DNA of 64,000 nt. Origin: Pelagimonas phthalicica. Its GTDB lineage: Bacteria > Pseudomonadota > Alphaproteobacteria > Rhodobacterales > Rhodobacteraceae. The stretch lies in assembly GCF_004364805.1 (NCBI RefSeq), contig NZ_SOAP01000001.1, positions 62,001 to 126,000 on the forward strand, in the 5' to 3' direction. Positions 8,777 to 49,281 of the stretch are shown here, piece after piece. How positions within the stretch are numbered: the first letter of the stretch is position 1; each line of letters begins with the position of its first letter. The position numbers were made by a program, and so were the translations under genes. The notes beneath the pieces were generated by a model, which saw nothing but the letters and a program-made list of their open reading frames with translations, did not search any database and was not told the origin of the DNA.

Positions 8777-8918
8777 GCGAATTCTCCGTTTCTGATGCAC
8801 CTTTAACTGGCGTCACCCCCAACTGTGTGCAACCCAGAACATCACTTAGCTCAAAGCTAAGGCGTTTTGTGAAGGTTACCCAACGTTTCTCATGCATTTT
8901 CTGCATAGCAGCAATGCT

Positions 8919-8947
8919 TTGACAGCCATTGTGCAGTCGCAGCATTT
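8919..8947 (+). promoter_or_regulatory. Candidate promoter of the DUF1127/CcsR transcript
   Basis: TTGACA at 8919-8924, 17 bp, then GCATTT at 8942-8947. The -35 is consensus but the -10 is poor. In Rhodobacter sphaeroides the equivalent operon is driven by RpoHI/RpoHII, whose elements are degenerate, so the sigma factor cannot be assigned from sequence. A start site near 8954 would leave the ATG at 8953 outside the message and favours the ATG at 8992 or 8998. Confidence 0.35.
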
Positions 8948-8997
8948 CCCCCATGTTTAACGCAACCAAGCACTACAGCCACAAAGGCACGATGAAA

Positions 8998-9216
8998 ATG
9001 GCATACGCAACGCACACTGATACAGCAGCCCAAAGCGGTTTGGGTGCACGTGTTTCGACGCTTCTGATCGACATCCGTGCGCGTCTGGCGCGTCGCAAAG
9101 TGTATCGCCAGACCCTGACCGAGCTGCAGACCCTCAGCAACCGCGAGTTGGCGGATCTGGGTCTGAACCGCTCGATCATTCGCCGCGTGGCTTATCAGGC
9201 CGCTTACGAGGTCTAA
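8998..9216 (+). CDS. DUF1127 protein (CcaF1-like small RNA-binding protein)
   Basis: 72 residues from the ATG at 8998 (an ATG at 8992 would add two). The C-terminal half carries the DUF1127 core: an Arg-rich helix (RARLARRKVYRQ) and LSNRELADLGLNRS ending RRVAYQAAYEV. AAAGG lies 5-11 bp before the two ATGs. The R. sphaeroides counterpart, CcaF1 (RSP_6037), is a small RNA-binding protein co-transcribed with, and affecting, the CcsR1-4 sRNAs. The same arrangement is seen here: the first sRNA hairpin begins 18 bp after the stop codon. By inference this protein is the first cistron of the sRNA precursor and may bind the array it heads. Confidence 0.9.
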   Translation: MAYATHTDTAAQSGLGARVSTLLIDIRARLARRKVYRQTLTELQTLSNRELADLGLNRSIIRRVAYQAAYEV

Positions 9217-9233
9217 GACATAGAACACCGCCT

Positions 9234-9327
9234 GACGCTCTCCTCCTCCCTGCGTCTTGCGGCTTCGGCGACGGTATCTCTCCTCCTCCCTGATACCGCC
9301 GCCGCCTAATTCGAGCCAGAACGGCTC
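9234..9327 (+). ncRNA. CcsR-type (CCR family) sRNA, unit 1
   Basis: Two hairpins with the same 13-nt loop TCTCCTCCTCCCT: stem GACGC/GCGTC (9234-9256) and a 12-bp stem with one mismatch (9267-9278 with 9292-9303). A third, short hairpin, GAGCC/GGCTC with a 5-nt loop (9313-9327), closes the unit. The CUCCUCC loop is complementary to Shine-Dalgarno sequences. It matches the conserved CCUCCUCCC motif of CcsR1-4 in R. sphaeroides. Confidence 0.9.
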
Positions 9328-9338
9328 AACGACATGAC

Positions 9339-9431
9339 AGACCCTCTCCTCCTCCCTGGGTCTTTCATAGATGCGGTGGCCCCTCTCCTCCTCCCTGGGG
9401 TCACCGCAACCAGTTTCGGACCAAGCGGTCC
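9339..9431 (+). ncRNA. CcsR-type (CCR family) sRNA, unit 2
   Basis: Hairpin AGACCC/GGGTCT (9339-9363), then TTTCATA-like spacer, then an 11-bp stem GCGGTGGCCCC/GGGGTCACCGC (9373-9407), both with loop TCTCCTCCTCCCT. The closing short hairpin is GGACC/GGTCC (9418-9431). The stems differ completely from unit 1 while pairing is kept. Confidence 0.9.
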
Positions 9432-9444
9432 ACATGACATGTCT

Positions 9445-9537
9445 GGCCCACTCCTCCTCCCGGGCCTTTCATAGTCGCGGCGGCTCCTCTCCTCCTCCCT
9501 GGAGCCGCCGCAAACCAAATTCGGACCTGAACGGTCC
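9445..9537 (+). ncRNA. CcsR-type (CCR family) sRNA, unit 3
   Basis: Hairpin GGCCC/GGGCC with a 12-nt variant loop ACTCCTCCTCCC (9445-9466). Second hairpin is a perfect 11-bp stem (9477-9487 with 9501-9511) with the standard 13-nt loop. Short closing hairpin GGACC/GGTCC at 9523-9537. Confidence 0.9.
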
Positions 9538-9548
9538 AACGCCTTGCT

Positions 9549-9640
9549 GGGTCCTCTCCTCCTCCCTGGACCCTTCAAAGCGGCGGTGATGCCACTCCTC
9601 CTCCCGGCCTCACCGCCACGCTCTTCGGGTCAAACGACCC
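9549..9640 (+). ncRNA. CcsR-type (CCR family) sRNA, unit 4
   Basis: Hairpin GGGTCC/GGACCC (9549-9573) with the 13-nt loop. The second stem (9582-9593 with 9606-9617, one mismatch) has the 12-nt loop ACTCCTCCTCCC. Closing hairpin GGGTC/GACCC at 9627-9640, a base-pair-swapped version of that in units 2 and 3. Confidence 0.9.
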
Positions 9641-9652
9641 AACGATATGTCT

Positions 9653-9746
9653 GGCCCTCTCCTCCTCCCTGGGCCTTTCATAATTGCGGTGGCCTCTCTC
9701 CTCCTCCCTGAGGTCACCGCACAAAAATTCAGAGCCTCAATGGCTC
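9653..9746 (+). ncRNA. CcsR-type (CCR family) sRNA, unit 5
   Basis: Hairpin GGCCC/GGGCC (9653-9675), spacer TTTCATAATT, then 11-bp stem GCGGTGGCCTC/GAGGTCACCGC (9686-9720), both with the 13-nt loop. Closing hairpin GAGCC/GGCTC at 9732-9746. Confidence 0.9.
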
Positions 9747-9758
9747 ATCTGCTTTGGA

Positions 9759-9837
9759 GCCCCATCTCCTCCTCCCTTGGGGTTTTCAAAAACTGGAAAC
9801 GGCGGTCGCTCTCTCCTCCTCCCTGAGCGCCGCCGTT
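9759..9837 (+). ncRNA. CcsR-type (CCR family) sRNA, unit 6 (terminal)
   Basis: Hairpin GCCCCA/TGGGGT (9759-9783) with the 13-nt loop, then a long stem (9798-9811 with 9825-9837, one bulged T) with the same loop. There is no third short hairpin; the second hairpin itself ends in a T-run and acts as the terminator of the whole array. Confidence 0.88.
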
Positions 9838-9840
9838 TTT
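9798..9840 (+). terminator. Rho-independent terminator of the sRNA array
   Basis: AACGGCGG and CGCTC pair with GAGCG and CCGCCGTT around the conserved CUCCUCC loop, and the 3' side runs into TTTTT. The regulatory loop and the terminator are the same hairpin. Confidence 0.9.
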
Positions 9841-9861
9841 CCGTTTTCAAAGGAGGGGGAT

Positions 9862-19461: not shown

Positions 19462-19495
19462 AAAAAAGCCCCGTTCGCGGTCAAGCGAAAGGAGC
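19462..19495 (-). terminator. Attenuator terminator in the metZ leader
   Basis: On the minus strand GCTCC-TTTCGC pairs with GCGAAC-GGGGC (one U-G, one mismatch) over a 5-nt loop, followed by TTTTTT. It sits between the SAM-II aptamer and the metZ ribosome site, where it can stop transcription before the gene. Confidence 0.8.
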
Positions 19496-19504
19496 CCTTC
19501 GTCT

Positions 19505-19562
19505 GACCTCTTTAGCGGGATGTTTAACGTGGCCCGCAATCCGGTGAACAAATCGCCACGAT
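19505..19562 (-). promoter_or_regulatory. SAM-II riboswitch
   Basis: The minus strand shows the SAM-II H-type pseudoknot. P1 is CGTGGC (19555-19560) with GCCACG (19528-19533), and P2 is GCGGG with CCCGC (19515-19519). The conserved stretches GATTTG, ACCGGATTGC, CACGTTAAAC and GCTAAAGAGG are all present in order. SAM-II senses S-adenosylmethionine and turns off methionine genes; here it controls metZ. Confidence 0.88.
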
Positions 19563-19683
19563 GGCGGTGGCATACGCCTGTTGCGCGCCCCGGTCAAGAC
19601 CGTCACGCAGCTGTAATAATCTGTTCACGAATCCGGCGCAGCCTTGGCCTTGCCACCATCAAACCCGTTCATGGATTGCCACT

Positions 19684-47502: not shown

Positions 47503-49281
47503 TCAGAGCGGCCAGAAGAGCGGAATGAACAGGGACGCGATCAAGCCGATGCTGATATTGAGCGGCAGGCCAACTTTGACAAAATCGGTGAACTTATAGC
47601 CGCCAGGACCGTAGACCAATGTGTTGGTTTGATAGCCAATCGGCGTGGCAAAGCTGCAAGAGGCGGCAACCATGACGGCAACCACCAGCGGGCGCGGATC
47701 GACACCGATGGCGCTGGCAAGGCTGATGGCAATCGGTGTCACCACCACGGCGACAGCATTGTTGCTGACCGCTTCGGTCAGGACAGACGTCAACAGATAG
47801 ACCGCCCAGATCAATAGGAAGGGCGGCAACCCCATGAGATGCGGCGCGACCGCTTCGACGATCATCTGGACCGCGCCAGAGGATTGCAGCGCCGCCCCAA
47901 TCGCCAGCATGGCAAAGATCAGCGCCAATAAGCGCCCTTCGATAAAGGAAAACGCCTCTTCGGCATCGATACAGCGAGCCAGAAGCACCACTGCCACTGC
48001 GACGATTGTCAAAGGCAGGATCTTAGCGACGCCCAGCGCTGACAGGATGACAATGCTCGCCAAAGCCAACAGGGCGATGGGCGCATGACCGCGGCGAAAC
48101 GCCTTGGCCGAGGGGCGCGAGACATCGACCAGGGCCATATCTTCGGCGAGGCGTTGAATGTCTTCTGGGTTGCCTTCGAGTAACAGCGTATCACCAACGC
48201 GCACCACCAATTGATCCAACTGGCGGCCAATATTCTGGTTCCGCCGATGCACCGCCAGCGGATAGACACCATAGCGGCGGCGCAGACGCAGCGCGCCCAG
48301 GCTGCGGCCAATCATCTTGCAACCCGGAGAAATCAGCACCTCGACCGTGGTGGTTTCCTTGGCCGAAACCTGATCCACGCGTTTCAGCGATTTATTGCGC
48401 TGGAGCGAGAGCAATTCGGTCATCTGGGTGCGCAAAACGACCCGGTCGCCAACCTCAAGCATGACACCTTGCAGGTTGCGGCGCAGGGATTCATCCCCTC
48501 GGATCACGTCAATCAACCGCACCCCATCGCGCTTGAACAGTTGAACACCCAGCACTTCGCGCCCAATCAGGTTGGATTCCGGCGGAATCACCGCCTCGGT
48601 AAAGAATTTCATCCGCGAGCGGTCAGACAGCATCCCGGCCATCGACGTGCGATCTGGCAGCAAAAATCGCCCGACCAGCAGCAGATAGAGCATGCCAAAA
48701 GCAATCAGGACCACCGCCAGCGGCGTGACCTCAAAAATCGTGAAAGGCTGCATGCCTTGGGTGCGTGCCACCCCGTCCACCAGCAGGTTGGTCGAGGTCC
48801 CGATCAGGGTCAGGGTCCCGCCCAGAATGGCGGCATAGCTCAGCGGGATCAGCAATTTCGACGGGGCAACCCCCAAAGATTTGGCCAATTGCACAAAGAC
48901 CGGCAGCATGACCACCACCACAGGCGTGTTATTCATAAAGGCCGAGGCCACAACCACAACCGCCAGAATGGCCGCCATAGCCGCCTTGGGATGGACCATG
49001 ACCTGCGCTTGGGCATAGTTGGTAAAGGCATCCAGGGCCCCGGTGCGCACCAAAGCCCCCATCACGATGAACATGCCTGCAATCGTCCAGGGTGCCGGGT
49101 TTGACAGAACCGCCAAGGCCGCCTCGTAAGGCAGAACGCCGGTGACCAGCAGCAGTGCCACGCCCCCTAGGGCAGTGACTTCTGTCGGATAAATGTCGCG
49201 CAGAAACAGCGCGAACATCAAAACGACCACCGCAATTGCAACACCCGCCTGCCCGGTTTGGCTCAGTTCGATAAACTGCAT
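47503..49281 (-). CDS. SLC13-family permease with two RCK_C/TrkA-C domains
   Basis: 592 residues. Eleven or so transmembrane segments; MNNTPVVVVMLPVFVQLAKSLG carries the SNNT-like loop of anion/cation permeases and GTSTNLLVDGVA the second one. Two TrkA-C domains in the centre (about 220-370; ESNLIGREVLGVQLFKRDG, SPGCKMIGRSLGALRLRR) sense ligands. The family carries anions such as sulfate or dicarboxylates. Confidence 0.9.
   Translation of the reverse strand: MQFIELSQTGQAGVAIAVVVLMFALFLRDIYPTEVTALGGVALLLVTGVLPYEAALAVLSNPAPWTIAGMFIVMGALVRTGALDAFTNYAQAQVMVHPKAAMAAILAVVVVASAFMNNTPVVVVMLPVFVQLAKSLGVAPSKLLIPLSYAAILGGTLTLIGTSTNLLVDGVARTQGMQPFTIFEVTPLAVVLIAFGMLYLLLVGRFLLPDRTSMAGMLSDRSRMKFFTEAVIPPESNLIGREVLGVQLFKRDGVRLIDVIRGDESLRRNLQGVMLEVGDRVVLRTQMTELLSLQRNKSLKRVDQVSAKETTTVEVLISPGCKMIGRSLGALRLRRRYGVYPLAVHRRNQNIGRQLDQLVVRVGDTLLLEGNPEDIQRLAEDMALVDVSRPSAKAFRRGHAPIALLALASIVILSALGVAKILPLTIVAVAVVLLARCIDAEEAFSFIEGRLLALIFAMLAIGAALQSSGAVQMIVEAVAPHLMGLPPFLLIWAVYLLTSVLTEAVSNNAVAVVVTPIAISLASAIGVDPRPLVVAVMVAASCSFATPIGYQTNTLVYGPGGYKFTDFVKVGLPLNISIGLIASLFIPLFWPL

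Follow-up and report, generated by a model that had tools for sequence, protein, structure and literature searches.

A DUF1127 gene with six CcsR-like small RNAs in Pelagimonas phthalicica and the paired palindromes of its promoter, candidate operators for PhaR

What controls a row of hairpins that all expose the same anti-Shine-Dalgarno (anti-SD) loop, and on what does such a row act? A 64,000-nucleotide stretch of the Pelagimonas phthalicica genome (contig NZ_SOAP01000001.1, positions 62,001 to 126,000; hereafter the window, whose own numbering is used) raises this question, as it contains a DUF1127 gene followed by twelve such hairpins. An earlier interpretation made from the letters alone, the sequence-only reading, had recognized the array and proposed a ribosome-like sponge. 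We consider it likely that the locus is an orthologue of the ccaF1-CcsR operon of Rhodobacter sphaeroides; in the window, an RpoH-like promoter would drive six small RNAs (sRNAs) that mask chosen ribosome-binding sites (RBSs), under repression by PhaR. The linker hairpins, the unit identities in a Pelagimonas relative and the paired promoter palindromes are what is new. While the array illustrates the wide spread and elasticity of CcsR/cuckoo loci, the promoter finding matters more.

The gene and its two-hairpin units

The gene (8998..9216, plus strand, as all features of the locus below) encodes a CcaF1-like DUF1127 protein of 72 amino acids (Pfam PF06568, E = 1e-11; 80 related loci), and a second in-frame ATG lies at 8992. 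Downstream of it, twelve exact CTCCTCCTCCC loops span positions 9240-9823, starting at 9240, 9280, 9346, 9385, 9451, 9489, 9556, 9595, 9659, 9698, 9766 and 9813. The loops at 9451 and 9595 (ACTCCTCCTCCC) have an initial A and lack the final T. Because the loop-to-loop spacing alternates between 38-47 and 64-68 nt, the array resolves into six units of about 105 nt, each with two hairpins carrying the CCUCCUCCC loop of CcsR RNAs. Covariance model (CM) matches and the hairpin listing place unit 1 at 9228..9304, unit 2 at 9334..9408, unit 3 (first loop ACTCCTCCTCCC) at 9445..9511, unit 4 (second loop ACTCCTCCTCCC) at 9549..9617 and unit 5 at 9653..9721, with additional evidence from the predicted fold for units 1, 2 and 5 and from unit comparison for units 3 and 4. 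Unit 6 (9756..9840; CM match and fold) ends in a hairpin with TTTTT (9797-9840) that doubles as a Rho-independent terminator, as known from CcsR/CIN1 loci.

We compared the window with 80 named DUF1127 loci of relatives (the best 80 of 100 found), which makes 81 arrays in total. In 49 of them a T-run follows the last array hairpin, versus 9 of 423 other hairpins; therefore, the final anti-SD hairpin is predicted to act as terminator in many arrays. Directly past the terminator of the window array, AGGAGGGGG (9851-9859) is SD-like and partially complementary to the array loops; no plus-strand gene start was noticed for it, although no search was aimed at one.

The loops are rare elsewhere. Of the 14 copies of CTCCTCCTCCC in the 4.89 Mb genome, 12 lie in the array, and the reversed pattern used as control was absent. 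CTCCTCC, which each loop contributes as two counts, occurs 25 times in the window versus 6.7 expected (shuffle maximum 14), with 24 of the copies inside the array. RNA folding of 9216-9845 gave -282.5 kcal/mol, compared to -186.3 +/- 5.2 for 20 dinucleotide shuffles (z -18.5), and the predicted fold contains all twelve loop hairpins plus five small inter-unit hairpins. The weakest stem is that of the loop at 9595 (3 bp, a mismatch, 8 bp).

Stem pairing was counted by script on hairpins in fixed register, since a MAFFT alignment of the six units put the last hairpin, in unit 6, two columns off. In the twelve window hairpins, 93% of the inner five stem positions were paired, with differing sequences. 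Among 259 distinct full-loop hairpins 79% of these cells were paired, versus 54% after re-dealing the 3' arms among the hairpins (at most 57% in 200 tries). A stem of 5 bp or more closed 466 of the 504 loops in the 81 arrays, versus 119 of 504 with shuffled arms. As far as such comparisons can tell, selection acts on hairpin structure over stem sequence. Several open reading frames (ORFs) also cross the array, for example 8890-9435 on the minus strand with repeated REEER; we took them as a consequence of the repeat and rejected a coding function because the stems co-vary as RNA.

Between the units, a hairpin search identified a small hairpin in all five linkers: GAGCC/GGCTC at 9313..9327, GGACC/GGTCC at 9418..9431 and again at 9523..9537, GGGTC/GACCC at 9627..9640, and GAGCC/GGCTC at 9732..9746. 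The 81 loci have 145 linkers between units, and 119 of these contain a hairpin with 5 bp or more, versus 32% of shuffled linkers. These hairpins fall outside the 83-nt Rfam CcsR1 match and may punctuate the precursor, guiding or blocking nuclease cuts. They were absent from the sequence-only reading, as were the terminator function of the last hairpin and the promoter element at 8901-8958; its description of a DUF1127 gene with a six-unit, twelve-loop array, two variant loops and varied stems that still pair was borne out.

To which family do the units belong? An Rfam scan at the gathering threshold returned nothing in the array. Below that threshold, the CcsR1 model (RF02791) matched all six units with 33.0-53.1 bits (E 5.1e-6 to 5.6e-12 in a 1001-base scan), and the ar14 model (RF02344) matched four stretches with 41.0-46.0 bits, all under its gathering value of 58.8. 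That every CcsR1 score remains below the gathering value of 65.3 speaks against the assignment. The curated cutoff seems tight, because CcsR1 matched 324 of 394 family genomes at E<=0.001 and only 17 of them exceeded it. The window's genome has seven CcsR1 matches; among 14 control genomes only Thermus composti gave one, below the cutoff. The expectation that covariance models would recover the CcsR/CCR family thus held at the level of matches, but not at that of the curated cutoff.

We conclude that the locus is a ccaF1-CcsR (CIN1) locus, a kind already known since both the R. sphaeroides locus and, in 2011, rhizobial sRNAs with anti-SD loops were described. In R. sphaeroides, an RpoHI/HII promoter is reported to drive joint transcription of ccaF1 (DUF1127) and CcsR1-4, RNase E and CcaF1 share in CcsR maturation, and the linkage of DUF1127 to CcsR-like RNAs has been named the CIN1 locus (PMC10253847, PMC8625941, PMC8307010, PMC3320616). 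The rhizobial sRNAs, with the loop in repeated hairpins, were likened in their report to R. sphaeroides RS0680a (PMC3927594). The window shares with CcsR1-4/ccaF1 (RF02791, CIN1, cuckoo RNAs) the DUF1127 gene with two-hairpin sRNAs in tandem downstream of it, their CCUCCUCCC loops, the end terminator and a putative RpoH-type promoter; it differs by six units instead of the published four (PMC10253847) and by its low CM scores. The 83-nt RF02791 model itself represents one two-hairpin unit and includes neither linker hairpins nor promoter palindromes. Alpha-r14 (RF02344), with Sinorhizobium meliloti NfeR1, has the same repeated loop on divergent stems, but NfeR1 consists of three hairpins under LsrB/NtrC control (PMC10746234), whereas the window has a protein-sRNA operon.

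By analogy, a single transcript from the RpoH-like promoter would comprise the message for the small DUF1127 protein, which binds RNA in R. sphaeroides, the six sRNAs and the terminator hairpin. RNase E, assisted by the DUF1127 protein, would cut this precursor into sRNAs, as reported for R. sphaeroides. There, extra CcaF1 is reported to interfere with CcsR maturation (PMC8307010), so the role of the protein is not simply helpful, a point against this part of the model.

Paired palindromes in the promoter

The core promoter (8929..8958), defined by alignment of relatives, is RpoH-like, with TTG at -35 (8929-8931) and CCCCCATGTTT in the -10 region (8948-8958), where many relatives have CCTATCTT. 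Two palindromes accompany it. The upstream one, CTGCATAGCAG (8901..8911), fits the Rhodobacter PhaR operator CTGCNNNGCAG (PMC12542648) and is conserved in relatives. The second, GTGCAGTCGCAG (8931..8942), is imperfect, lies 30 nt past the first and overlaps the -35 TTG.

We then asked whether this arrangement is conserved. The 350 nt upstream contain CTGCN3-4GCAG in 57 of the 81 loci (mean 0.97, maximum 4 in 500 mono-nucleotide shuffles). When both sites were searched together, allowing one mismatch each and a distance of 26-34 nt, the pair (CTGCATAGCAG-type plus GTGCN4GCAG) was found in 70 of the 81 loci, but in only 1 of 765 background windows taken from the flanks of the same loci and assumed to be mostly coding. 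The spacing was 30 nt in 21 and 31 nt in 49 of these loci. A further set of arrays found via Rfam (L186-L215 without L214, which has no array group; its genomes may overlap the named set) contained the pair in 25 of 29 cases, with a perfect first site in 16. Judged by these counts, the pair and its spacing are special, not the single site.

Two more loci of the window's genome bear on this. Another DUF1127 gene has CTGCATAGCAG about 115 nt upstream of its start, which was set by eye (L151 position 916, G000 contig C3). A stand-alone two-hairpin CCR sRNA, by eye with its own terminator, lies on contig C7 of the same genome (L015/L152, about 48440-48520). It matches ar14 and CcsR1, both below cutoffs, and is accompanied by the palindromes CTGCATTGCAG and GTGCGACTGCAG, 32 nt apart.

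Which regulator could read these sites? In R. sphaeroides, PhaR binds CTGCNNNGCAG and represses phasin genes, while Cupriavidus PhaR is sequestered to polyhydroxybutyrate (PHB) granules (PMC12542648). In S. meliloti, the same source describes two palindromes flanking the -35 of phaP1 and phaP2, and repression of the sRNA mmgR by PhaR at CAATTGTGCACCGCAGCATTA, a site tested by electrophoretic mobility shift assay (EMSA). The second site of the window reads CCATTGTGCAGTCGCAGCATTTC; its middle is one base longer than in mmgR, and it is nearly identical otherwise. Both are sRNA promoters with a TTGTGCA..GCAGCATT site (PMC12542648); in contrast, MmgR belongs to another RNA family and is 77 nt long (PMC9049629), and only the window has the additional upstream palindrome.

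The window's genome encodes PhaR (PF07879 at C1:200826-201008, E 7.6e-27), with a CTGCGATGCAG site just upstream of the gene. A search of 50 relatives, drawn from the 80 named loci, recovered phaR in 49, so that genomes with and without phaR could not be contrasted for the site. As a positive control we analysed phasin loci: 23 of 30, the window's genome included, showed a CTGCN3GCAG pair 27-30 nt apart (22 of 29 if L181 and L182, which are the same contig, are counted once). The seven loci without sites (L156-L159, L161, L164, L184) may be paralogues. In the window's genome the phasin sites are CTGCGTCGCAG and CTGCGCCGCAG, 28 nt apart. Given the operator match at 8901-8911, the mmgR-like second site, the phasin pairs, the presence of phaR and the site upstream of phaR itself, we lean towards control of the DUF1127-CcsR operon by PhaR, the sensor of PHB granules.

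Several observations weigh against this reading of the promoter. The -12 of the window is CAT instead of the TAT that, with the -35 TTG present here, characterizes RpoHI/HII promoters (PMC10673084); many relatives have CTAT. The pair is missing in 11 of 81 loci (L093, L100, L105, L106, L114, L116, L119, L121, L122, L123, L125). A single motif is not specific, as TGCTGCNNNGCAGCA with up to one mismatch occurs at 47 places of the genome (reversed control 3); among these, CTGCATAGCAG is found only at two DUF1127 promoters, that is, at two of the five DUF1127 genes. The metagenome bin L048 has the pair, yet no phaR was found in it. The phasin match of the window's genome is weak, with 22.4 bits below the Pfam cutoff of 24.9. 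Finally, three features would suit a regulator other than PhaR: the first site has an ATA/ATG centre conserved beyond what CTGCNNNGCAG demands, the second is an imperfect one (GTGC with G for the consensus C, and a 4-nt spacer), and the 30-31 nt spacing is about 2 nt off that of phasin pairs. Such a regulator is possible, but it would have to share the operator published for R. sphaeroides PhaR, the near identity to the EMSA-tested mmgR site (PMC12542648) and the similar dual sites that these genomes carry at their phasin promoters, and we regard it as the less probable reader.

Under control by PhaR, repression would act through the two palindromes 30 nt apart, one of them over the -35. Carbon surplus, with PHB removing PhaR, and RpoH-dependent stress would together raise CcsR, and raised CcsR would lower the output of pyruvate dehydrogenase, one-carbon (C1) and transporter genes. 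With the same modest preference we extend this proposal to the Rhodobacteraceae as a whole: PhaR may directly repress the DUF1127-CcsR operon as well as stand-alone loci of CcsR type, like that on contig C7. The carbon store would then control an RBS-blocking sRNA array that damps the mRNAs for pyruvate dehydrogenase, C1 oxidation and nutrient uptake; RpoH stress and PhaR storage signals would meet at one promoter, and array length would be an evolvable gain setting. If true, PhaR control would account for the effects of a stress sRNA family on pyruvate dehydrogenase and C1 metabolism, as acetyl-CoA feeds PHB, and it would have a parallel in S. meliloti in the repression of mmgR, an unrelated sRNA, by PhaR. 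Such control would also constitute a metabolic input to the DUF1127-sRNA operon that we did not meet in the literature searched: among the matches listed, titles and abstract openings held no link of PhaR to CcsR, DUF1127 or a Rhodobacter sRNA, the core CcsR papers being outside this check.

Array size and unit identity in relatives

All 80 named DUF1127 loci have a neighbouring array, with 2-15 hairpins. It lies downstream of the gene in 77 of them and precedes it in three Sulfitobacter loci (L114, L122, L125), where it is short and two-hairpin. Counted by CTCCTCC loops, for which no stem was required (the first loop counted in L072 is inside its DUF1127 gene), the 81 arrays have 2 (4 arrays), 3 (2), 4 (33), 5 (2), 6 (11), 7 (4), 8 (11), 10 (5), 12 (5), 13 (2) or 15 (2) loops. 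Loci titled Pelagimonas or Tropicibacter have 8-15 loops, and L048, third closest by protein, has 4. The longest array met, with 26 loops, follows a DUF1127 gene in genome G165 (L126, contig C1, about 334949-336121) and forms a higher-order repeat of three hairpins per about 140 nt. The gene upstream of that locus is, by eye, the same Mrp-type ATPase. Thus, while the linkage to DUF1127 and the excess over the four units of R. sphaeroides stand, the emphasis that the sequence-only reading had placed on six units does not: its suggestion to count units per genome puts six at the upper end of the range, not outside it, and they are not exceptional.

Are the units interchangeable copies? With the loops removed, units within the window array share 0.53-0.78 identity with each other. 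Against the Pelagimonas locus L046, the identities are 0.88 for window unit 1 with unit 1, 0.97 for window unit 3 with unit 4, and 0.89 for window unit 4 with unit 5; both ACTCCTCCTCCC loop variants are kept in the matching units. The best values in L046 for window units 2 and 5 (0.78 and 0.77) do not exceed those between units of the window array itself, and that for unit 6 is as low as 0.59; counterparts of units 6 and 2 exist in L047 (0.86) and L058 (0.85), respectively. In L047 a block of two units has recently been duplicated in tandem to give units 3-6 (identities 0.94 and 1.00), which shows that arrays can lengthen by copying blocks. By this comparison, a Pelagimonas relative preserves at least three of the six units in recognisable form, and some units, at the least, appear to have stayed distinct instead of being homogenised.

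Possible action of the loops on other mRNAs

The complement of the loop is AGGGAGGAGGAGA. Upstream of ATG codons, at a distance of 3-11 nt, GGGAGGAG occurs at 30 sites of the genome versus 2 for the reversed control; 2 of the 30 are the antisense of array-type loops. The plain AAGGAGGA pattern is enriched before ATG as well (20 versus 2), so the enrichment shows only SD sequences. Twenty-one of the 30 sites head ORFs of at least 60 amino acids. By eye, solute-binding proteins make up 7 of these 21 ORFs and none of the control set, a small comparison without statistical test. Seven of the 21 ORFs were scanned against NCBIfam, with longer proteins cut at 330 amino acids. Malate-CoA ligase beta, pyruvate dehydrogenase E1 alpha and DddP passed the cutoffs; a pyrroloquinoline quinone (PQQ) methanol/ethanol-type dehydrogenase, two molybdenum-hydroxylase-type subunits and a pyruvate dehydrogenase E1 beta-like protein scored below them. 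At pdhA starts, called roughly and without success for L285, at least 7 nt of loop complement were present in 16 of 30 genomes, versus 8 of 326 generic ORFs and 0 of 48 DUF1127 starts. This is suggestive only, as pdhA may simply have a strong SD.

These candidates agree with pathways reported for related RNAs. CcsR1-4 are reported to target flhR mRNA in R. sphaeroides (PMC8307010) and to affect C1 metabolism and pyruvate dehydrogenase (PMC10253847, PMC8625941, PMC8307010), and candidate targets of NfeR1 are mostly ABC transporters (PMC10746234). We do not count the agreement as proof. The loop resembles the anti-SD of 16S rRNA and any strong SD fits it, which leaves the target evidence weak and counts against selective masking. 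In the model we prefer, the near-invariant pyrimidine loop, on a stem free to vary, would pair with the long purine-rich SD of selected mRNAs and block their translation; extra units would supply redundant copies of one seed per transcription event.

The sequence-only reading had instead derived a ribosome-like sponge from the copy number. As a general decoy, the CCUCC loops would titrate SD sequences or mimic free 16S tails, initiation would drop globally, and unit number would set the strength. The anti-SD core in the loop agrees with this, as does the variation from 2 to 15 loops, and 26 in one genome; a mere dosage device would also allow window units 2, 5 and 6 to be without a counterpart above 0.8 in L046. 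However, the identity that units 1, 3 and 4 keep in L046 is needless for a pure dosage sponge, and 33 of 81 arrays make do with four loops. S. meliloti NfeR1, with the same motif, is reported to pair at the translation start of particular mRNAs, which it silences with three redundant motifs (PMC10746234). A sponge is therefore less likely than masking of chosen RBSs, and we consider it improbable. It is hardly credible that the hairpins serve only as stabilisers and terminator in the 3' untranslated region of the DUF1127 mRNA, as their usual place downstream of the gene and the terminator-like last hairpin might suggest, given a near-invariant loop on varying stems, arrays upstream of the gene in 3 of 80 loci, the stand-alone locus with a similar promoter element in the same genome, and the reported action of CcsR1-4 on flhR.

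Apart from the locus, the window contains a SAM-alpha riboswitch on the minus strand (19491-19569, 62.5 bits).

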